64,000 nucleotides of DNA. Origin: Hysterangium stoloniferum. Taxonomy: Eukaryota; Basidiomycota; Agaricomycetes; Hysterangiales; Hysterangiaceae. The number at the start of each line of letters is the position of its first letter. Positions within the stretch are counted from its first letter, which is position 1. The notes beneath the pieces were generated by a model that saw nothing but the letters and a program-made list of their open reading frames with translations, was not told where the DNA came from and made no database searches. The stretch covers positions 248,001-312,000 of the forward strand of contig WHVD01000001.1 in assembly GCA_015178975.1 (NCBI GenBank), given 5' to 3'. A program made the position numbers and the translations under genes. Of the stretch, positions 21,443-41,915 are shown piece by piece.

Positions 21443-21606
21443 GGGATAGACAGGGATGACATGCATGGGGTCCAGGTGGGTATTCTGGTGACTGGTACAT
21501 GAGATAATGAAGGTCAGGCATGGACAGGTCTGATGTCCAGGTTCCAGCAGGTATTCCGGTAAACTGATAACTGGTGTGTGTAGGGTGCAGGTGCATATAG
21601 GGTAGT

Positions 21607-22329
21607 TGTTACGACTGTGTCGTAACCCTTCGCAAACCGACGCCCCCTGACGGAATACCCTCGTTATACGTCTCCGACAATACAACACCTCGGAAGACGT
21701 CGGACCTCCGACGCTGACGTATGCTCTCCGGTCAATCAAACCCGACTACGCCTTTCTGTCTGGTTATGTTTTGATATGTCCCTTTCATCATGTTGATCCG
21801 TATCATCTTATGTTCCACATATGTCTAACTATATTCGTAGTCCTCGAACTATTTCCTTTTATCGTAATTTCCATTCTCGGTTATCATCGGCCTCCGAACT
21901 AATCATAAACTTCCTGTTCCTAGTCAAGCTTATTGTTAATGCCGTTTTCCGCCCTCCTCCCCATTAGTACTTTCTAGACGCCTGTTACTTGTATATGAAC
22001 TCGCTGTAATTGTAGTTACGAGGCAATCAGAATATCGACTCAGAATACCCTCATACGTCTGTAGCAGTCTCATACTAGGAGAATCTCTCTTCCGCCTTCG
22101 CGTGCGCTCGCCCACTCTCGGCCCCGACCCCTTGGCCCGACACCTGACTTTTCCTTCGGTTCCGATCGGTGTCTTGCCGAAAAGTTCTTCTTAGGATTTA
22201 GTCTTCGCCTGTCCGAAATTTAAGGACAACCTACGGATATTTGCGAGGGCGCAGCATATAAGCTGAAGCCGAGTCCTTCCGATCGGTCCCCGTCGGCCAC
22301 CGACATTAGTCAGTTTCTAGTTCTTAACA
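21607..22329 (+). repeat. gypsy-1 5' LTR
   Basis: 723 bp, from TGTTACGACTGTG to GTTCTTAACA. TATA-like tatatga lies at 21992 and the predicted transcript start at 22025. The 3' box ATAAGCTGAAGCCGAGTCC lies at 22258-22276. Confidence 0.93.
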
Positions 22330-22342
22330 GTATATTCTGATT
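22025..22342 (+). promoter_or_regulatory. Predicted self-primer and primer-binding site of gypsy-1
   Basis: AATCAGAATAT at 22025-22035 lies 33 bp after a TATA-like box, where the transcript should begin. Its exact complement ATATTCTGATT lies at 22332-22342, two bases after the 5' LTR, where the primer-binding site belongs. The related Tf1/sushi elements prime reverse transcription by folding the 5' end of their own RNA onto this site. The fit here is 11 of 11 bases. The role is inferred, not shown. Confidence 0.6.
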
Positions 22343-22367
22343 TTACACTCGCATTTTCCGTCTAATC

Positions 22368-23666
22368 ATGCCTCCGAGGAAAAATGCCAAGCCTAGCGGC
22401 GAAGCAGAATCTTCCACTCTCAAGTCTCCTTTCCTGTATACAGCCCGAACTACTCAGAAAACTCCGTTACCAGAAATCTCCGAAGAATCTCGCTTTGTGG
22501 AGATTACCGGCGATGCTGAAGAAGTAACCGAAGCAACCGACCCCGAAGCAACTGAGGAGATTAACAATCAACCAGTTTCGGAACACGAACCCGAGGATGT
22601 CGACCAACCTCAGGCTAGTGGCTCCAAGAAGTCTGCAAAGAAGAAACCGGCTCTCGACCCTGAAGAAACATGGGAATTGTTTTCAGGTACACTAGGATCC
22701 CTTAATGAATTCCTTAAAAGCAATATCAAGGAAAAGGAACCTGGGCAAACCCGAGTCAACAAACCCGAGCCATTTACTGGCTCAAACCCGAAGAAATTGC
22801 CGACATTTCTCATGCAATGTCGATTCAACTTTCGGGACCGCCCGGCTGCATTCGCAACGGATGACCGAAAGGTAAACTTCGCACTCTCATACCTTAAGGA
22901 TTCCGCAGCAGCCTGGTTCGAACCCGCATTCTCTGGCCTCACCTCTGAAGACCCCGATTGGCTCCACGATTGGGATGCCTTTGTCGAGGAACTCGAAACC
23001 AACTTCGGCCCCTACGACCAAACCGGCGATGCAGAAACCGCGCTTTCTAATCTCAAAATGAAAGACACTCAGCGCATCACCGATTATATTGTCCAGTTCA
23101 ACAACCTCGCCGCGCGTTGCGACTGGGGCGATTCGGCCCTCCGTTACCAGTTTTACTCCGGCCTTCCGTCTCGCCTCAAAGACGAAGTCTCCAAAGGAGA
23201 GACCGGCAAGCCGAAAACCCTCCCTCTCATGCGCCTGAAAGCCCAAAACGCAGACGCTCGATACTGGGAACGACGTTCGGAAATCAGTCGCGAAAACCCG
23301 TCGGACAAAAAATCATCAGACAACAAAAATGCCAACAAGTCTGGTAACCAAAACACCAATATAACTGGCAACTCGACTTCCGATAAGAAGTCCGAAAACA
23401 AAGGGTCTAACGACAAAAAAGGCAAGGGCAAACAGTCGAATAAGTCTCAAGACAAAGACAAACCCGACCTAACTGGCAAACTCGGCTCCGATGGCAAGCT
23501 CCTTCCACAGGAAAAGCAACGCCGAATGGACAACAACCTTTGTTTGTTGTGTGCAGATCCCGGACACCGAGTCGCTGCATGCCCAAAAGCCACAAAAGCC
23601 CGATCGGCCAATACGGCCACGACCTCACAACCGGCCAAGCCGGCTGCCGAGTCGAAAAAAGATTAA
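22368..23666 (+). CDS. gag: gypsy-1 Gag polyprotein
   Basis: 432 residues that form the virus-like particle and bind element RNA. The first 110 residues are acidic and low-complexity. A retrotransposon Gag core spans about residues 125-300 (KPEPFTGSNPKKLPTFLMQC; AAAWFEP; MKDTQRITDYIVQFNNLAA). A Lys/Asn/Ser-rich linker follows. A zinc knuckle C-X2-C-X4-H-X4-C (CLLCADPGHRVAAC) lies at about residues 391-404. The stop TAA directly follows a run of six A. Pol overlaps in the -1 frame. Confidence 0.92.
   Translation: MPPRKNAKPSGEAESSTLKSPFLYTARTTQKTPLPEISEESRFVEITGDAEEVTEATDPEATEEINNQPVSEHEPEDVDQPQASGSKKSAKKKPALDPEETWELFSGTLGSLNEFLKSNIKEKEPGQTRVNKPEPFTGSNPKKLPTFLMQCRFNFRDRPAAFATDDRKVNFALSYLKDSAAAWFEPAFSGLTSEDPDWLHDWDAFVEELETNFGPYDQTGDAETALSNLKMKDTQRITDYIVQFNNLAARCDWGDSALRYQFYSGLPSRLKDEVSKGETGKPKTLPLMRLKAQNADARYWERRSEISRENPSDKKSSDNKNANKSGNQNTNITGNSTSDKKSENKGSNDKKGKGKQSNKSQDKDKPDLTGKLGSDGKLLPQEKQRRMDNNLCLLCADPGHRVAACPKATKARSANTATTSQPAKPAAESKKD
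23654..23661 (+). promoter_or_regulatory. Probable -1 frameshift site between gag and pol
   Basis: The Gag frame reads TCG AAA AAA GAT TAA. A slip of one base back on the A run gives AGA TTA AGC and enters the pol frame. The same context, TCG AAA AAA GAG TAA GCAAC, is kept at 35742-35749 in gypsy-2 although flanking sequence has diverged. Confidence 0.6.
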
Positions 23667-26600
23667 GCAACTCTCTGGATTCCGTGCGGTTGGAGAGTTG
23701 CGTTGAATCTCCTCGCACACCGGAAAATTGTCATCTTAACGCATCCGCATTGTATGATCCTAATTCTTTGTTCATAAATCTTACTTCGGAACCTCTCGGG
23801 AGTTTCACTTTTCGAGCTCTCATAGATTCAGGTTCAACCCATTGTTTTATAGATACAAGTTTTTCCAGAAAAAATCAGTTGAAAACCTATGCAATAGATC
23901 CAATTCCGCTCCGACTTTTTGATGGTACCTCAAACTCCGTAATCTCGCAAACCTGCGAACTCCGACTTCGGTTCCCGTGTGGAACCTTTCAGACAGTTAC
24001 GTTTTTTGTAACACAGTTGGACTCGAGCTGCTCCGTGGTTCTAGGACATAACTGGCTCACCCGCTATAATCCGTTGATTGATTGGGTATTGGGCAGTATC
24101 CATTTCCGAACCCCGTCGGCACCCGATACGACTGGTCCTTTTCCGCCTGTTTCGGCAAATATGGCCTCTACAGCACCTCCGGCCCCCGTGGCAAATCCGA
24201 GCTCTCCGCCGCCCGTCTCTCTAATAAACGCCGCAGCTTTTATGAGAGCCATCAAGCTGGACGGCTCCCGAGCATTTACAGTCAATCTTAAAGTTGACGA
24301 AGTCACCGGTCGCTTCGCATCCCCGGTGACCGAACCGATCGCAGATTTAGAAGGTGTTCCTAAAAAATACCATGAATTCGCAGATGTCTTCAGTAAACAA
24401 AAAGCCGATCGACTCGCCCCTCACAGGCCTTACGATTTGAAAATTGATATTGAAGATGGTTCACATCCGCCCCTAGGTCCGGTTTATCCTCTCTCGCAGT
24501 CCGAACTATCGGCTATCCGAGATTTCTTGGATGAACACTTGGCTATAGGTTTTATCCGACCCTCAAAGTCTCCCTATGGAGCCCCTGTCCTATTCGTTCG
24601 GAAAAAAGACGGTTCCCTTCGACTTTGCGTTGACTTTCGAGGACTAAACGCGATTACTCGAAAAGACAAGTACCCATTACCACTAATCTCCGATTTACTC
24701 GACGCCCCTCGAAAGGCCCGAATTTATACAAAGATAGATCTCAAACACGCCTATCATTTGGTTCGGATCGCCGAAGGTGACGAATGGAAAACAGCTTTTT
24801 GCACTCGCTATGGTTCCTTTGAATGGTTAGTGATGCCTTTCGGCCTCACCAACGCTCCGTCGGTCTTTCAACGTTTTATCAACGACGTCTTTTCCGACCT
24901 ACTTGACGTCTTTGTCATTGTGTACCTAGACGACATCCTCATCTTCTCCGAAGACCCTACACTTCATGATGAACACGTCCGTGAAGTCCTCCGAAGACTC
25001 CGAAAACATGGTCTTTTTGCGAATGGTAAAAAATGTTCTTTTGATGTCGACACGGTTGAATACTTAGGCTTCATGATGGAACCCGACGGTCTCCGCATGG
25101 ACGACTCTAAAATTCAAGTCATTCAAGATTGGCCGGAACCCCGAAAGGTTAAAGATATTCAGTCCTTTTTAGGCTTCGCCAATTTTTATCGCCGTTTCAT
25201 TCACAATTACTCAAAAATTACCGTTCCGCTCACTCGTCTTACTCGCAAAGACACCCCGTGGAATTTCTCCGACGAATGCCGATCGGCATTCCAGGAACTG
25301 AAAAGTGCATTTACATCCGCCCCTATTTTGTCGCACTGGAAACCCGACGTTCAACTCATCGTGGAAACTGATGCTTCGGACTATGCGCTTGCCGCGATAT
25401 TGTCCATTCTGGACACCGATGGTGAAGTACACCCAGTAGCTTTTCTGTCTCGCACATTTTCGGCGCCCGAACTCAACTACGACGTTCACGATAAGGAATT
25501 ACTCGCAATCTTTGAAGCTTTCAAGACATGGCGACATTATTTGGAGGGCTCGGCCCACCCGGTAGATGTTATTACAGACCACAAAAATTTAGTTTACTTT
25601 TCAACCACAAAACTTCTCACCCGTCGACAAGCTCGATGGTCCGAATACCTCTCCGCTTTCAACATGGTAATCCGCTTCCGTCCCGGCCGCCTTGGTGGAA
25701 AACCCGACGCTATGACTAGACGATGGGACGTCTATCCTAAAGAGGGGAGTAGCGACTACGCCACAGTTAACCCGCATAATTTCAAACCTATGTTTTCATC
25801 TGAACAACTGTCCGCATCTATCCGAGCCACTTACCTCATTCATCCAGTCTTGCGAAGTGTTATCCTTATGGATACCGAAAAGTTACATCAAGACATACTA
25901 TCGGCAATTCCATTAGACCCAGTCACCAAAGCACACCTCGATAACCCGTCCGACCCCGATCAACCCCGATGGTCATTAGACTCACAAGGTTTCATTCGAC
26001 TTGACAATCGCATTTATGTACCGGATTCCGACACCCTTCGGCTGCGAATCCTACAACATAAGCACGACCACCCAATCTCAGGACATTTCGGCCTCAATAA
26101 GACCCTCTCACTCATTAGAAGAGAATATACATGGCCCGGCATCCGAGATTTTGTTAAGCACTATTGTAAATCCTGTACTACGTGTTTACGCTCTAAATCA
26201 CAGCGACACAAACCATATGGCCTACTCAAACAATTACCGATACCGGAAAAACCCTGGAACTCGATTTCTATGGATTTTATCGAGCACCTGCCAGCATCCG
26301 AAGGTCACACAGCAATCCTAGTTGTTGTGGATCGGCTCTCAAAGCAAAGTATTTTCATTCCAACATATGACACGATAACATCTGTACAGTTAGCTGAATT
26401 ATTCGTTACCCATGTATTTTCCAAGCATGGCGTTCCGTCGCATGTCACATCCGATCGCGGCTCCGAGTTTGTCTCTCACTTCTTTAGGTCACTCGGAAAA
26501 GCACTAGACATGAAGTTACACTTCACTTCGGGCTATCACCCGGAAGGCGATGGACAAACCGAACGCATGAATCAAACCTTGGAGCAATACATCCGTGTCT

Positions 26601-27352
26601 ATTGCAACTATCAACAAGACAATTGGAAATCACTACTACCGCTGGCCGAATTCGCATACAACAACGCACCAAATGCCACTACTGGCATTTCGCCTTTCTT
26701 CGCAAATAAAGGCTACAACCCCAACATCGAAATCCACCCGGAACGCGATCTCGCATCCGCCCGTGCTCAAGACTTTGTTACAAACCTTGACGAGCTACAT
26801 CAAGAACTTCGTAAAACTATCGCAATGGCTCAAGAACGATACCAACGGTCTGCGGATAAAAACCGACTTCCACCTCCTGATTTCAAGATCGGAGACCGAG
26901 TATTCGTTAAAGCCGAGTTTTTCCGAACCACTAGACCTTCTAAGAAGCTCTCCGAAAAATATTTAGGTCCTTTTGAAGTCATAGCACAAGCCGGCACGCT
27001 TTCATGGACGCTTCGGCTCCCCGACAACATGCGTGCAGTACACCCGGTATTTCATGTATCCATGTTAGAACCTTGTGTTGCTAACAGTATACCCGATCGC
27101 ATACAACCACCACCCCCACCCGTGATCATCGACGGGGAACCCGAATTTGAAATATCGGAAATCCTAGACTCCAAGATCGACAATCGCAGGCGATCGTGCA
27201 AGTTACTTTATTTGGTCAAATGGACTGGCTATGAAGGTACAGATGAAGAAACTTCCTGGATTCTAGCCACCGAACTTGGCAATGCATCGGAAATTGTTTT
27301 AACTTTCCATCAAACGTATCCGAATAAGCCCGGTCCTTTAGACTCTCTTTAG
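23660..27352 (+). CDS. pol: gypsy-1 Pol polyprotein with chromodomain
   Basis: The enzyme chain that copies and integrates the element. It is read by -1 frameshift; the open frame itself spans 23540-27352. In order: aspartic protease (ALIDSGSTHCFID, about 23810); reverse transcriptase (DFRGLNAITRKDKYPLP; YLDDILIFS at about 24920); RNase H (ETDASDYALAAIL, about 25370); integrase zinc domain HHCC (HPISGHFG; CKSCTTC); integrase core with Asp in SMDFIEH, Asp in TSDRGSEF and Glu in GDGQTERMNQ; a GPY-like end; and a chromodomain (LLYLVKWTGYEGTDEETSW, about 27205-27260), which in this family steers insertion to chromatin marks. No stop or shift is seen, so it looks active. Confidence 0.95.
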   Translation, partial: RLSNSLDSVRLESCVESPRTPENCHLNASALYDPNSLFINLTSEPLGSFTFRALIDSGSTHCFIDTSFSRKNQLKTYAIDPIPLRLFDGTSNSVISQTCELRLRFPCGTFQTVTFFVTQLDSSCSVVLGHNWLTRYNPLIDWVLGSIHFRTPSAPDTTGPFPPVSANMASTAPPAPVANPSSPPPVSLINAAAFMRAIKLDGSRAFTVNLKVDEVTGRFASPVTEPIADLEGVPKKYHEFADVFSKQKADRLAPHRPYDLKIDIEDGSHPPLGPVYPLSQSELSAIRDFLDEHLAIGFIRPSKSPYGAPVLFVRKKDGSLRLCVDFRGLNAITRKDKYPLPLISDLLDAPRKARIYTKIDLKHAYHLVRIAEGDEWKTAFCTRYGSFEWLVMPFGLTNAPSVFQRFINDVFSDLLDVFVIVYLDDILIFSEDPTLHDEHVREVLRRLRKHGLFANGKKCSFDVDTVEYLGFMMEPDGLRMDDSKIQVIQDWPEPRKVKDIQSFLGFANFYRRFIHNYSKITVPLTRLTRKDTPWNFSDECRSAFQELKSAFTSAPILSHWKPDVQLIVETDASDYALAAILSILDTDGEVHPVAFLSRTFSAPELNYDVHDKELLAIFEAFKTWRHYLEGSAHPVDVITDHKNLVYFSTTKLLTRRQARWSEYLSAFNMVIRFRPGRLGGKPDAMTRRWDVYPKEGSSDYATVNPHNFKPMFSSEQLSASIRATYLIHPVLRSVILMDTEKLHQDILSAIPLDPVTKAHLDNPSDPDQPRWSLDSQGFIRLDNRIYVPDSDTLRLRILQHKHDHPISGHFGLNKTLSLIRREYTWPGIRDFVKHYCKSCTTCLRSKSQRHKPYGLLKQLPIPEKPWNSISMDFIEHLPASEGHTAILVVVDRLSKQSIFIPTYDTITSVQLAELFVTHVFSKHGVPSHVTSDRGSEFVSHFFRSLGKALDMKLHFTSGYHPEGDGQTERMNQTLEQYIRVYCNYQQDNWKSLLPLAEFAYNNAPNATTGISPFFANKGYNPNIEIHPERDLASARAQDFVTNLDELHQELRKTIAMAQERYQRSADKNRLPPPDFKIGDRVFVKAEFFRTTRPSKKLSEKYLGPFEVIAQAGTLSWTLRLPDNMRAVHPVFHVSMLEPCVANSIPDRIQPPPPPVIIDGEPEFEISEILDSKIDNRRRSCKLLYLVKWTGYEGTDEETSWILATELGNASEIVLTFHQTYPNKPGPLDSL

Positions 27353-27475
27353 TCCTCGCACGGTAACCGACGGCCTCCGGTTCTTCAAACATCAAGTCTC
27401 ACTAGTCGATGCTTTCAAATTTTCAATTTTCAATTCACGTTTCAAAAAAAGGGGATAAAATCAATTATTATTTTG

Positions 27476-28473
27476 CTAACTACCCAAAGTACCCTCCACT
27501 ACTTCCCCTTCCTCCTCGGCCTCCGAAGCTCTTGCTTCACCGACGGCAACCGATATTCCCTTCCCTCCAGTTTCCTCCAAGGCCCTAACCGGCTCAACTT
27601 CGTCCGAACTAGGCAGCTCGAGATACTGCTCGAGCTGCCCCCCGACCCACTGTAACATGGCTGTCTGTTCTCCAATAGCCACTCCCAGCAGTCGCATTTG
27701 CTCTTGTAGGAGCCCCTGCTGTCGCAGAGACTCGTTTCGCCACCGAGTGGTCTCCGAGAAGTACAACCGCATAAGGCGGTTCTGTTCCTCCATCGCGTCT
27801 GTCTGGCGCTCTCCGTAGATCACACCCACGTCGGCCCCCGGGTAGGTACAACCAAGTTTTTGACTCGCACACTCTTGACATGTGCGGCCCCGACCGTTCG
27901 CCCGAGGATGGCAAGCCCGGTTCCGAGCAGTGCAGCGGTTACACCTAGGATCGTTTTCAGGCCCCGCCTTTGGGACTCCTTTTTGTCTCTATCACTAAAA
28001 GTCAGTAACAAAAAAAATATATATATGCATAAATACCTTCGGGCTCGAAGGCCCCGCAGCCTCATCCTCATCTTCCTCGTCCTCTTCATCGGAGACCGAC
28101 GGTGATACTGCCTTTCGCTGAGAAGAAAACATTAGTAGAGATTCGCAGTGCGGTATTTCTCCTAACTTACCTTCCCTTCTCGTTTCTTTCTCGCCTCCTC
28201 CTCTCGGGCCCGACCGGCCTCCTGCTGTTTTTTCCTCGCAAGATCAGCCTCCCGACGCTTGCGTGTAGCTTCCACCTCCGCCCGTCTCTTCTCCTCCGCC
28301 TCGGCCACCTCAATCGCTTTCAGCTCCTCCATCTCCTTTCGTTCCTCCTCCTCGCGTGCCTTTTTCCTTGCCTCGAGTTGGCGACGACGCTCTAGTGCAT
28401 TCAGCGTCCCACTCGGACCCGACGCGGGAGTTACCGTCAGCCTCACAGGGATGGTCTTCGCCCCAGTGTTCAT
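27476..28473 (-). CDS. Antisense three-exon gene in gypsy-1: coiled coil plus Zn2Cys6-like motif
   Basis: Exons 28473-28171, 28117-28037 and 27988-27476 join at phase-0 GT-AG introns into one 298-residue frame. Residues about 30-100 are a Glu/Arg/Lys/Ala coiled coil (LERRRQLEARKK onward). Residues 102-128 are an acidic serine-rich stretch (SDEEDEEDEDEAAG). Residues 144-175 show six cysteines spaced C-X2-C-X6-C-X10-C-X2-C-X6-C, the spacing of the fungal binuclear zinc cluster of GAL4-type DNA binders; basic residues between the halves (HPRANGRGRT) fit. A second amphipathic helix rich in Gln/Glu follows (RQQGLLQEQMRLLG) and an acidic tail. It converges on pol and lies fully inside the element. 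Function is unknown; transcription control or silencing of the element is a guess. Intact splicing and frame argue for a real gene. Confidence 0.75.
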
Positions 28474-28530
28474 TGACAATGTGTTTTGGAGGAAAGATTG
28501 AAGAGTAAAGCGCCTTGTAACCTCCCATTT

Positions 28531-28540
28531 CTTATATGCG
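28531..28540 (-). promoter_or_regulatory. TATA-like box of the antisense gene
   Basis: On the minus strand CGCATATAAG stands about 60 bp before the ATG at 28473 and after the start of the internal region, so the gene seems to have its own promoter outside the LTR. A similar TATATA stretch (about 33747) precedes the antisense start in the family-A element. Confidence 0.45.
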
Positions 28541-28651
28541 AAAATTTTACCGGTCACATGACGTTCTGACACACAACCCGTAACCGACGTTGTTTACGTA
28601 CACGATCTAGATTTTCGGCCTCCTTGGAATTTCGGCCAAATGAGGGGATAC

Positions 28652-29373
28652 TGTTACGACTGTGTCGTAACCCTTCGCAAACCGACGCCCCCGACGGAAT
28701 ACCCTCGTTATACGTCTCCGACAATACAACACCTCGGAAGACGTCGGACCTCCGACGCTGACGTATGCTCTCCGGTCAATCAAACCCGACTACGCCTTTC
28801 TGTCTGGTTATGTTTTGATATGTCCCTTTCATCATGTTGATCCGTATCATCTTATGTTCCACATATGTCTAACTATATTCGTAGTCCTCGAACTATTTCC
28901 TTTTATCGTAATTTCCATTCTCGGTTATCATCGGCCTCCGAACTAATCATAAACTTCCTGTTCCTAGTCAAGCTTATTGTTAATGCCGTTTTCCGCCCTC
29001 CTCCCCATTAGTACTTTCTAGACGCCTGTTACTTGTATATGAACTCGCTGTAATTGTAGTTACGAGGCAATCAGAATATCGACTCAGAATACCCTCATAC
29101 GTCTGTAGCAGTCTCATACTAGGAGAATCTCTCTTCCGCCTTCGCGTGCGCTCGCCCACTCTCGGCCCCGACCCCTTGGCCCGACACCTGACTTTTCCTT
29201 CGGTTCCGATCGGTGTCTTGCCGAAAAGTTCTTCTTAGGATTTAGTCTTCGCCTGTCCGAAATTTAAGGACAACCTACGGATATTTGCGAGGGCGCAGCA
29301 TATAAGCTGAAGCCGAGTCCTTCCGATCGGTCCCCGTCGGCCACCGACATTAGTCAGTTTCTAGTTCTTAACA
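28652..29373 (+). repeat. gypsy-1 3' LTR
   Basis: 722 bp, identical by eye to the 5' LTR except for one missing base in the run gacgccccc. Followed by the GTAGT duplication and the tail of the family-A LTR. Confidence 0.93.
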
Positions 29374-30013
29374 GTAGTTCCCAGAGTCCAGTGGGTTTTC
29401 CAGTCATAACAGAGGGTTATATGGTCTGATGAGACTAAAATAAATTGCCTTGGATCAGATGGGAGGAAGTGGGCATGGAAAAAGACTGGGGAAGGCCTGA
29501 ATAAGAGGCTAGTTCAAGGAACAGTGAAGTTTGGTGGAGGGTCTGTCATGGTTTGGGAGTGCTTCATGTGGGAGGGTGTGGGATATGCCACCAGAATTGA
29601 GGGTAGAATGGATGGGGAACTTTACAGGAGCATCTTGGATGAAGACCTCCAAAACAGCATCAGGTATTACCAGTTGGACCCTGCTAAAATCATCTTTCAG
29701 CAGGATAATGATCCAAAACATACCTGCAAAAAGGCAAAGGAATGGTTTGAAAATAATGGAATGACTGTCCTACCATGGCCTGCCCAATCTCCAGACCTCA
29801 ATCCAATTGAGCATCAATGGGATTACTTGAAGAGAAAGCTGGGACAGTATGCTACTGCACCAAGTGGGATTCTGGAGTTGTGGGAGAGGATAGAGAAGGA
29901 GTGGGAAGATATACCAGCTTCTGAGTGTCAAAAGTTAATTCAAAGCATGCCAAGAAGGATTGAGGCAGTCATAAAGGCCAAGGGAGGGTATACCAAGTAT
30001 TAAAATATTCCAT

Positions 30014-33595: not shown

Positions 33596-33803
33596 GTACC
33601 CTCCCTTTATGCTGAAGTCCCAAAGAGGCTCTAGACCTCAATAAGGTTCTTGTCAGCTACGCGCATGTGTCAAAAGTCATGTCAGTTACACGTATGTGTC
33701 AAAGAGTCATGTGATCTGGAAGGTAAGGTTCAGATGCGACAAGCCTATATATAAATTTGAAAAAATAGAATTTCTTCTTCTTTATTACCCCCATCTTTGC
33801 CAT

Positions 33804-33935
33804 ATGGGTCCCAAACCAATGCCAAGAAGACCTATGCTGACCGCTGGGCCATCCATGGGCACTCCATATTGGGCGCCTCTTAGTGCAACCCAAATTTGGT
33901 GCAACAAGAGAAACAGTGCCAACTACGTGAGGAAG
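33804..33935 (+). pseudogene. N-terminus of an antisense gene in the family-A element
   Basis: This frame is antisense to the family-A element and starts about 200 bp from its polypurine tract, the same place as the antisense gene of gypsy-1. It reads MGPKPMPRRPMLTAGPSMGT and then SATQIWCNKRNSANYVRK. The gypsy-1 counterpart begins MNTGAKTIPVRLTVTPASG and then LNALERRRQLEARKK, so the layout (basic start, T-A/S-G-P box, Arg/Asn-rich helix) is alike. It is cut by the gypsy-2 LTR. A TATATA run lies about 55 bp upstream. Confidence 0.45.
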
Positions 33936-34669
33936 TGTTACAACCGTGTCGCGGCCATTTGGCCCCGAGGTTATCACCACCTATTGATGATTCAAGTTAT
34001 CGCTCAAGTCACCACATCGGAAACCATCGCCCCCGATGCTGACATATGCTTTCGTGGTGATCAAACTCCATTTACGCCCATGTCAAAATATACTCGTATT
34101 ATCTGGTTAAACTTTTGATACGTCCCTTTTATTATGTTGATCTGTTCTATCCTATGTTTCACATATGTCTATCTATATTTGTAGTCCTCGAACTATTTCC
34201 TTTTACTGTAATTCCACTCTCAGTTATCATTGGCCTCCAAACTAATCATAAACTTCCCGTTCCTAGTTGAGCTTATTGTCAATACCCTGTTCTGCTCTTC
34301 TCCTAGTTAGTATTTCCTAGACACTTGATACTTGTATATGAACCCGCTGTAGTTGTAGTTACTAGGCAATCAGAATATTGACTCAGAATACCCTCATAAG
34401 TCTGTAACAGTCTCATACTAAGGATCCCCTCATCCACCTTCGCATGCGCTCGCCCACTCCCGGCCCCGACCCCTTGGCCCGACACTTGACTTGTCCTTTG
34501 GTCCCGATCGGTATCTCGCTGAAAGGAACTCTTTAGGATTAGTCTTCGCCCATCTGAAATTTAAGGACACACTACGGATATTTGCAAGGGCACAGCACAT
34601 AAGCTGAAGCCAAGTCCTTCCGATCGGTCCCTGTCAGCCACCGACATTAGTCAGTTTTCAATTCCTAAC
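33936..34669 (+). repeat. gypsy-2 5' LTR (family B, decayed)
   Basis: It starts TGTTACAACCGTGTCG, is homologous along its length to the gypsy-1 LTR, and keeps GCAATCAGAATATTGACT at the predicted transcript start. The final CA, the primer-binding site and the first gag codons are deleted at about 34669. Confidence 0.85.
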
Positions 34670-41081: not shown

Positions 41082-41915
41082 TCAATCTACATTTATGGGG
41101 CTATGTTTCTGCCCAACCTCAGCCATCTCCTCAGGGAGCTCCGCGACCTCCACGGGAACCCCATCCTCATCCGACCCGGCATCCTCAGAACTCCCGACTT
41201 GCAGCTCTTCATATATATAGCTGCCATACTCCACCAGGAACTTCCAAAACTCCTCATGGAGTCCGCAAAGCTCCTTTGCCACCACAATTTGGACTTTGTT
41301 ACTCTTCCAGAGCAACTCATTTTGGACCTCTAAGCCCTCGGTGATCCATCCCAAGACTTCGTCCAACCCAGAAAACCTGTCCAACTGATGTCTTGCGCCC
41401 TGGACCCCGTGGCCTGCTCGTGAACCAAAGAGCACCTTGCTTTGAGGTGCGCGCATTGGTAGCAGCCTGGACCCTGCCCGGACTTTCGGTTGCATTCCGT
41501 GTTCCAGTCATTACAACCAAAACACCGTGGGTCATTCCATGTCGGTAGGTGGACTGGTGCCACCTTCCTTGCCTTCTGTTGATATGGTTAGTTCCCTGGA
41601 TATCCCATGGACCTGAGACTTACCTTTTGGGGGTTCTCTGGCTCCCCCTCAGACTCTGATTCTACCTCTGTCACTTTGCACTGAAATTACTAAGTCAGTT
41701 ATACTTGACAAGTTGAAATGTTGGGACTTACTTTGCCCGCAGCAACCGCAGCCCTGTCCGCAGCTGCCTGCACTTTCTCTGCAGCCACCCACACAGCCTC
41801 CTCCTCATCTTTTTTCTTCTGCCTTGCAGCCTCTTCCTCCGCAGCCAATGCCACCTGGTACTCCCTGTCCAGGGCCTCCTTGGCCTCTCTGGCCTCCTTC
41901 TCTGCTTCCTGTTAA
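41082..41915 (-). pseudogene. Antisense Zn2Cys6-like gene of gypsy-2, truncated
   Basis: Three minus-strand exons are visible: about 41915-41742, a Glu/Ala coiled coil (EAEKEAREAKEALDREYQVA) ending at GTAAGT; about 41679-41630, an acidic short exon (VTEVESESEGEPENPK) ending at GTAAGT; and from about 41575 an exon with CFGCNDWNTEC, then after nine residues CYQCAHLKARC, spacing C-X2-C-X6-C-X9-C-X2-C-X6-C. The helical tail (41495-41082) is in another frame, so a shift or lost splice occurred. The start codon is gone: the copy is cut at 41911 by an LTR scrap. Same exon plan and place as in gypsy-1. Confidence 0.65.

Follow-up and report, generated by a model that had tools for sequence, protein, structure and literature searches.

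The closest described fungal system is Boty of Botrytis cinerea, in which an antisense gene, brtn, lies between pol and the 3' LTR (Zhao et al. 2011, Virology 417:248, as cited in passages of PMC7264820, PMC8365987, PMC4227169 and PMC5987419). In plants, antisense open reading frames (ORFs) after pol are carried by the aORF-3R elements, among them Grande (gene23), RIRE2, Retand (TRP28) and PvRetro13 (PMC7264820, PMC11963269). According to the relevant passages of the same two papers, gene23 is nuclear and has its own promoter, TRP28 is thought to bind DNA, and a regulatory role has been proposed (PMC7264820, PMC11963269); what antisense ORFs after pol do is called unknown in the corresponding part of PMC7264820. 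HTLV-1 offers an analogy in logic: its antisense gene HBZ, from the 3' end of the provirus, encodes a protein that antagonises the activator Tax (PMC7264820).

Here we describe an antisense gene of the element gypsy-1, located in a stretch of 64,000 nucleotides of Hysterangium stoloniferum DNA that was analysed as a whole (hereafter, the window). As far as Boty is described in the citing passages, the two have in common that a fungal gypsy element with gag-pol and a terminal chromodomain carries an extra antisense gene before the 3' LTR. Botrytis is an ascomycete, unlike the present host. With the plant aORF-3R elements gypsy-1 shares both the place and the orientation of the additional gene.

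Layout of gypsy-1 and its antisense gene

The gypsy-1 element (21607-29373) is a young Ty3/gypsy element: its 5' and 3' LTRs are 99.86% identical, its gag and pol are open, and it is bordered on both sides by GTAGT. By its LTRs, gag, pol order PR-RT-RH-IN and C-terminal chromodomain it is a chromovirus. The interval that separates pol from the 3' LTR holds three exons on the minus strand, which are joined through phase-0 GT..AG introns into a frame of 298 codons plus stop (Table 1), whose product contains the motif CNRCTARNRACHPRANGRGRTCQECASQKLGC (CX2CX6CX10CX2CX6C). This three-exon frame and its location, as well as the six-cysteine spacing and an acidic exon, had been proposed in the initial annotation, and all of them were reproduced from the sequence, exon 1 being charged and exon 2 acidic. 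The ACTGAC in intron 2 fits the branch-site consensus.

Table 1. Positions in the window of gypsy-1, its antisense gene and the related features
Feature	Position	Strand	Basis or remark
5' LTR of gypsy-1	21607..22329	+	GTAGT at 21602-21606 and 29374-29378
gag of gypsy-1	22368..23666	+	ORF; Pfam Retrotrans_gag E 7e-14, Ty3_capsid
pol of gypsy-1: protease, RT, RNase H, integrase, SH3-like, chromodomain	23669..27352	+	Pfam
Antisense gene, exon 1 (101 codons, charged)	28171..28473	-	Splicing of window sequence; relatives
Antisense gene, intron 1 (GTAAGT..CAG, 53 nt)	28118..28170	-	
Antisense gene, exon 2 (27 codons, acidic)	28037..28117	-	
Antisense gene, intron 2 (GTATTT..TAG, 48 nt; contains ACTGAC)	27989..28036	-	
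Antisense gene, exon 3 (170 codons + stop): six-Cys cluster, long predicted helix, acidic tail	27476..27988	-	
TATA box CATATAAG, about 58 bp upstream of the antisense ATG	28531..28538	-	Alignment of divergent loci
Antisense promoter element TGTGTCAGAACGTCATGTGA, common to family 2	28554..28573	-	Alignments
3' LTR; distal U3 (to about 28860) is part of the diverged stretch	28652..29373	+	
Diverged, cassette-like stretch: chromodomain end, antisense gene, promoter, polypurine tract, distal U3	27120..28860	.	Edges approximate
Family-2 antisense gene beside gypsy-2 pol, exon 1 cut off, exon 3 frame broken; CX2CX6CX9CX2CX6C	41085..41905	-	
Start of family-2 antisense gene: promoter element 33695-33714, exon 1 start 33804-33953, interrupted by gypsy-2 LTR	33695..33953	+	

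Upstream of the antisense gene, the TATA box was present in 10 of 12 divergent copies of the gene, namely those that cover the promoter with homologous sequence, and the same 10 loci carry the upstream element TGTGTCA..TCATGTGA, with small changes in some. In a second family of antisense genes (see below), the TATA box reads CCTATATAAAA, and TGTGTCA..TCATGTGA is found in both families. A promoter pattern written from the family-1 and family-2 alignments themselves gave, as printed, 409 forward and 409 reverse genomic matches at up to one mismatch, and its backwards control gave none. Among the matches listed, 18 of 32 promoter places, all those listed on contigs C1-C3, had an exon 3 or pol partner on the expected side. 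Within the window, the pattern at up to three mismatches had two matches, both exact; two matches were reached in 9 of 100 shuffles.

The antisense gene also accompanied pol elsewhere in the genome. Among the matches listed, at least 113 of 150 family-1 pol ends had a convergent antisense match within 1.5 kb and none a same-strand one; this partner list consisted of 150 protein-match rows, 11 DNA-match rows and 6 family-2 rows, and the 18 best pol ends all had a convergent partner. For family 2, the count was at least 81 of 150 within 2 kb, again with no same-strand match among those listed. Pol matches that had no antisense partner among the matches listed numbered 37 of 150 and 69 of 150, respectively. 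In all eight divergent loci with flanks, pol lay beside the gene on the opposite strand, several of these pol copies being broken. A conserved opposite-strand ORF between pol and the 3' LTR in most copies, a feature by which aORF-3R elements are recognised, is thus found here.

Independently of the antisense gene, we observed that a block around CATATAAGCTGAAGCC occurs at 10 places of the window (repeat family D10; for example, 22215-22277, 29259-29321 and 34556-34618), with differing surrounding sequences; it is perhaps a shared core promoter.

Conservation of the antisense gene in two families

The genome (111 Mb, 554 contigs), whose 18 hydrophobin matches would suit a basidiomycete of the mushroom type, was searched for copies of the gene. 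The antisense gene of gypsy-1, which represents family 1, had 41 DNA matches in its own genome at 80-100% identity, and its protein had at least 150 genomic matches at 53-100% identity (the best 150 of 648 first-look candidates). When the window sequence was aligned with 20 close copies, on average 0.21, 0.21 and 0.63 rows per site departed at the first, second and third codon position, respectively, and 0.38 in the introns; all 21 rows kept GT..AG at both introns. After automatic extraction, the frame was open throughout in only 5 of the 21 rows, of which the window and L009 are one copy; the remaining rows had stops, indels, or an extraction that was one base short.

The comparison of the window gene with 12 divergent copies gave dN/dS values of 0.13-0.23 in 16 exon comparisons. 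As a control, the other five frames were evaluated in the pair of the window and L037, and pN exceeded pS in four of them, the fifth, a reverse frame, being the exception. Judged by splice patterns, the frame is intact in 6 of 13 sequences, namely the window and five divergent loci; the latter have the same three-exon layout and, once spliced, encode 292-294 residues. In the seven other divergent loci these patterns found no start, no splice site or no open exon 1, the start of L047 lying outside the fetched stretch. Five of the six cysteines were present in all 23 unique exon-3 proteins and the second cysteine in 22 of them; these proteins were selected from 52 loci because their frame was open over 150 residues or more and contained the tail motif, with cysteines playing no part in the choice. 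A lack of conservation of the cysteines and splice sites in homologous elements had been named beforehand as part of the outcome that would speak against the gene; both proved to be kept in relatives.

Two further features of the copies were seen. Exon 2 of L047 (C62:86150-87550) contains a long in-frame 9-bp repeat expansion of acidic units, by which the acidic stretch is lengthened. The stops within the listed antisense and pol matches are mostly TGA, which is consistent with C-to-T decay at CGA through CpG methylation or a RIP-like process.

The second family was found beyond the pol of gypsy-2 in the window, and is missed by family-1 proteins at E 1e-3. A 61-residue piece of its exon 3 had at least 150 matches at 78-100% identity (the best 150 of 1003 candidates). 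The one locus that was spliced of the four fetched, L081, encodes 109+19+166 = 294 residues with the spacing CX2CX6CX9CX2CX6C. All four family-2 proteins have the six cysteines, the dN/dS of their exon 3 was 0.16-0.30 (six pairs), and pN exceeded pS in four of five other frames of the pair tested. Exon 3 is only 22-26% identical between the families. Despite that, exon layout, splice sites, cysteine spacing and TATA promoter are common to both, and the comparison of the families gave a probability of 95.5% and E 1.6e-8 over the cysteine region with hhalign, and 31% identity and E 6e-5 with BLAST. By these alignments, families 1 and 2 are related.

The family-2 gene of the window is split in exon 1: its start abuts the 5' LTR of gypsy-2, and the rest abuts a 42-bp LTR end. 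GGAAG flanks both pieces (33695-33953, plus strand, and 41085-41905, minus strand), and the halves are oppositely oriented, suggesting an insertion combined with an inversion, or self-integration. In the genome, more than 20 family-2 places have an identical score (112.3 bits over 60-61 residues), which hints that these elements recently transposed in a burst.

One could suppose that the frame is a chance reading frame in a repeat, and no gene. The codon-position pattern and the frame controls, the latter made in both families, lead us to reject this; the dN/dS values, the at least 150 matches per family and the layout kept between the families point the same way, and the probability of a chance frame is negligible. 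The sequence evidence says that the antisense gene is real, spliced and under purifying selection at the protein level.

The cysteine cluster and the predicted long helix

Zn2Cys6 domains follow the spacing rule CX2CX6CX5-12CX2CX6-8C, and have as further hallmarks an aromatic residue after the last cysteine, and a linker and a long helix behind the cluster. The six-cysteine spacing of both families is compatible with this rule. A linker and a predicted long helix likewise follow the cluster, and family 1 has the aromatic residue. In contrast to Zn2Cys6 domains, the basic stretch between cysteines 2 and 3 is weaker in family 1 and nearly missing in family 2.

The initial annotation had assigned the cysteines to a GAL4-type cluster and had proposed a search against the Pfam family Zn_clus (PF00172) as a check, which did not confirm the assignment: the window protein was absent from the matches at E<=10, and none of the 23 family-1 and 4 family-2 exon-3 proteins reached the cut-off of 21 bits, the best relative scoring 18.4 bits. 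At E<=10, six of the 23 and all four, respectively, were listed, and the matches that were printed correspond to the model's second half. We also compared profiles of the two families with three Zn2Cys6 domains of the host. The family-1 profile scored 31.0, against 17.5 +/- 3.2 when the non-cysteine columns of the cluster were shuffled (0 of 60 shuffles as high). The score of the family-2 profile was 15.7, against 18.8 +/- 3.7 for its shuffles (48 of 60 as good). Thus, of the GAL4-type assignment the spacing is supported and, in family 1, by the comparison with these three host domains, a likeness beyond the cysteines; membership in Zn_clus is supported only in part, as scores remain below the cut-off, and family 2 has the spacing only.

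The structure predicted by AlphaFold contains a helix over exon-3 residues 54-123 (70 residues) at high confidence, with a pLDDT of at least 90 in 54-56 residues. The cysteine region, as a block, had a pLDDT of only 42-59. Because of this low-confidence model of the cluster, the Pfam scores below the cut-off and the shuffle comparison, we call the protein zinc-cluster-like and do not count it among the Zn2Cys6 members. From Zn2Cys6 regulators it differs, besides its Pfam score, in being encoded by a retrotransposon.

Searches of the PDB by sequence and by fold gave no convincing match, a search of NCBIfam gave nothing useful, and a single-protein search found no public homologue. Two profile searches of public proteins gave one match, BU17DRAFT_68499 of Hysterangium stoloniferum itself (116 aa), which covers the helix and tail only. 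In the host genome, Zn_clus matched 76 places at E<=1. Among the antisense places listed, not one had any of the 76 within a distance of 2 kb, so that a parent gene in the host was not recognised. Some Zn_clus matches are closely clustered on contigs C56, C115, C308 and C85, some of them sharing one frame, which is an unusual arrangement. In 14 distal U3 sequences, which represent 12 distinct copies, the triplets CGG/CCG were not above expectation (smallest p 0.2), so no cis target was identified by them.

The diverged stretch and possible functions of the gene

We compared gypsy-1, a type-A element, with elements of type B; the more distant L051, which is saturated in most of pol, was left out of the pol ranges. 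Silent divergence (dS) was 0.06-0.46 at pol codons 780-1150, 0.59-1.33 at codons 1150-1227 (one value saturated), and 1.4-1.8 in the antisense gene. The bootstrap ranges of dS for codons 1000-1150 and 1150-1227 did not overlap in five of six loci; in L054, where dS was 0.35 and 0.59 across the step, they did. At the protein level the chromodomain end hardly changed, with a dN of only 0.05-0.11 at codons 1150-1227 (L051 left out). In 60-bp windows, evaluated in three loci, identity was 0.83-0.97 before 27120 and 0.42-0.82 over most of 27300-28850, with values of 0.77-0.87 around the antisense promoter and the LTR start. Inside the LTR, L055 had an identity of 0.88-0.98 at 28860-29040 and 0.73-0.85 afterwards, and L052 and L053 reached only 0.65-0.88 at 28860-29040. 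In 200-bp windows, identity at 28901 was 0.90-0.95 in three of six loci and 0.78-0.80 in the other three. As identity recovers clearly in half of the loci only, the diverged stretch has a soft right edge. In its 5' half, the L055 element has 92.5% identity over 3493 bp. In the type-A elements L026, L027 and L028, identity dipped to 0.70-0.88 but a long step was absent; the LTR of L027 was not comparable. The chromodomain end, the antisense gene, its promoter and the distal U3 have a divergence history that differs from that of the rest of pol, and in this the stretch resembles an exchanged regulatory cassette.

The stretch, though not the gene as such, could also be explained if the 3' part gathered silent changes faster or if gene conversion kept gag-pol alike. 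In support of that, the silent distance in exon 3 exceeded that in pol also within type A (about 1.3-1.6 fold; L009, L027, L028) and within type B (about 1.3-3.7 fold; L055 against L050 and others). Moreover, the tree topologies agree: the pol and antisense trees both unite the type-B elements (support 0.954 and 1.0, branch 0.013 and 0.44, respectively), and a search for topological conflict between them found none. One exchange, or conversion of gag-pol, would therefore be enough, and repeated exchange is not established. Against this explanation stand the excess between A and B, which is about 4.6-9 fold (from L009), and the step inside pol in five of six loci. If the rates differed by a fixed factor, the ratio should be the same throughout, so that the larger excess between the types speaks against it. 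The type-A element L028 had, in pol, a dS of 0.15 to L050 (B) and 0.19 to L009 (A), and in exon 3, of 1.06 and 0.30. We regard a faster rate or conversion as possible, if on the unlikely side; were it true, the antisense gene would say nothing about U3 specificity, and any of the other alternatives discussed below could hold as well.

A more far-reaching reading of the exchanged cassette likens it to the repressor-operator modules of temperate phages. Antisense gene, promoter and distal U3 would be exchangeable together as an immunity-type unit: the zinc-cluster regulator encoded by each type would recognise the U3 of its own cassette, control the copy number and, according to its specificity, shut out or admit other elements, old types being kept and swapped among near-identical gag-pol bodies. 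This we consider quite doubtful, weakened as it is by trees that have one deep split in branch length and no conflict in topology. The start of the LTR (28652-28671 and 21607-21626) is a near-perfect palindrome, GTTACGAC-TGT-GTCGTAAC, which persists, slightly changed, in type-B elements and is a candidate operator.

For the gene itself, we propose the function of an accessory regulatory gene of the chromovirus lineage, whose product would be a nuclear dimeric self-regulator of the element's own control region, with a logic like that of HBZ; we place about even confidence in this. What points to a self-regulator acting on the control DNA of the element is the combination of an own promoter, a layout of six cysteines plus helix, basic and acidic stretches, and linkage to U3. 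The antisense promoter would be used, and the introns would be spliced from the antisense transcript only; left uncut in the sense genomic RNA and copied in each round, they would persist through transposition. The protein would enter the nucleus and dimerise via the long helix of exon 3, its six-cysteine zinc cluster would bind DNA, and its acidic parts would contact the transcription machinery. As the most likely target we see the element's own U3, the antisense promoter or both, through which the strength of the sense promoter would be set. Since factor and U3 would travel in one cassette, their specificities could diverge together. The role would be that of a copy-number or latency regulator, repression and activation being indistinguishable from sequence.

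The same product might instead be a replication accessory and no transcription factor, binding the RNA or cDNA of the element or helping the pre-integration complex to the nucleus or chromatin together with the chromodomain. Cysteine clusters and charged coils suit nucleic-acid binding in general, and the diverged stretch takes in the chromodomain end as well. Such roles have been proposed for plant antisense ORFs in passages of PMC7264820. However, a separate antisense promoter makes the gene independent of the sense RNA, unlike gag-pol, and the diverged stretch includes the distal U3, while the chromodomain protein itself hardly changes; we hold a replication role to be unlikely. Less probable still is that the antisense RNA is what matters, pairing with the sense genomic RNA, feeding RNA silencing and limiting copy number with no need of a protein. 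The transcript would indeed fall within the sense genomic RNA, and double-stranded RNA has been proposed for antisense ORFs in the same source (PMC7264820), but selection acts on amino acids and splice sites, and RNA pairing would require neither. We consider it equally improbable that the protein is a regulator captured from the host, acting mainly on host promoters and so preparing a cell that favours the element: the host has its Zn_clus places, three of which family 1 resembles, but none of them was recognised as a parent gene near the listed antisense places, and the linkage to U3 points to self-regulation.

To our knowledge, self-limitation or timing of retrotransposon activity is known in few cases. 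Here, an antisense protein of a predicted DNA-binding type is conserved at hundreds of places in one fungal genome, linked within one old stretch to a U3 that it possibly controls. Self-regulation is simply testable in this system, as it involves one protein, one promoter and several natural variants, and the family supplies splice sites, a promoter element and a domain for probing the function of antisense ORFs.

The likeness of the proposed self-regulator to HBZ would be one of function: as far as PMC7264820 describes it, HBZ is a bZIP protein with its promoter inside the 3' LTR, whereas here a six-cysteine cluster is encoded and the promoter lies in the internal region. The proteins of plant aORF-3R elements, as given in the passages cited above, differ as well (TRP28/PF04195, SMC-like, or none named), and the word zinc is absent from the main texts of PMC7264820 and PMC11963269. 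The initial annotation knew of no fungal element of this make-up. That is too broad for an antisense gene after pol, which Boty has with brtn; it may hold for a zinc-cluster antisense gene, none of which we found in any retrotransposon in the literature, as judged mostly from titles and the beginnings of abstracts. The passages citing Boty mention no U3 cassette. Antisense genes in fungal elements thus have a precedent in Boty, and the present one is spliced, zinc-cluster-like and equipped with its own promoter. What appears to be new, by the sequence comparisons above, is the high divergence, between two element types and relative to the rest of pol, shared by the chromodomain end, the antisense gene, its promoter and the distal U3.
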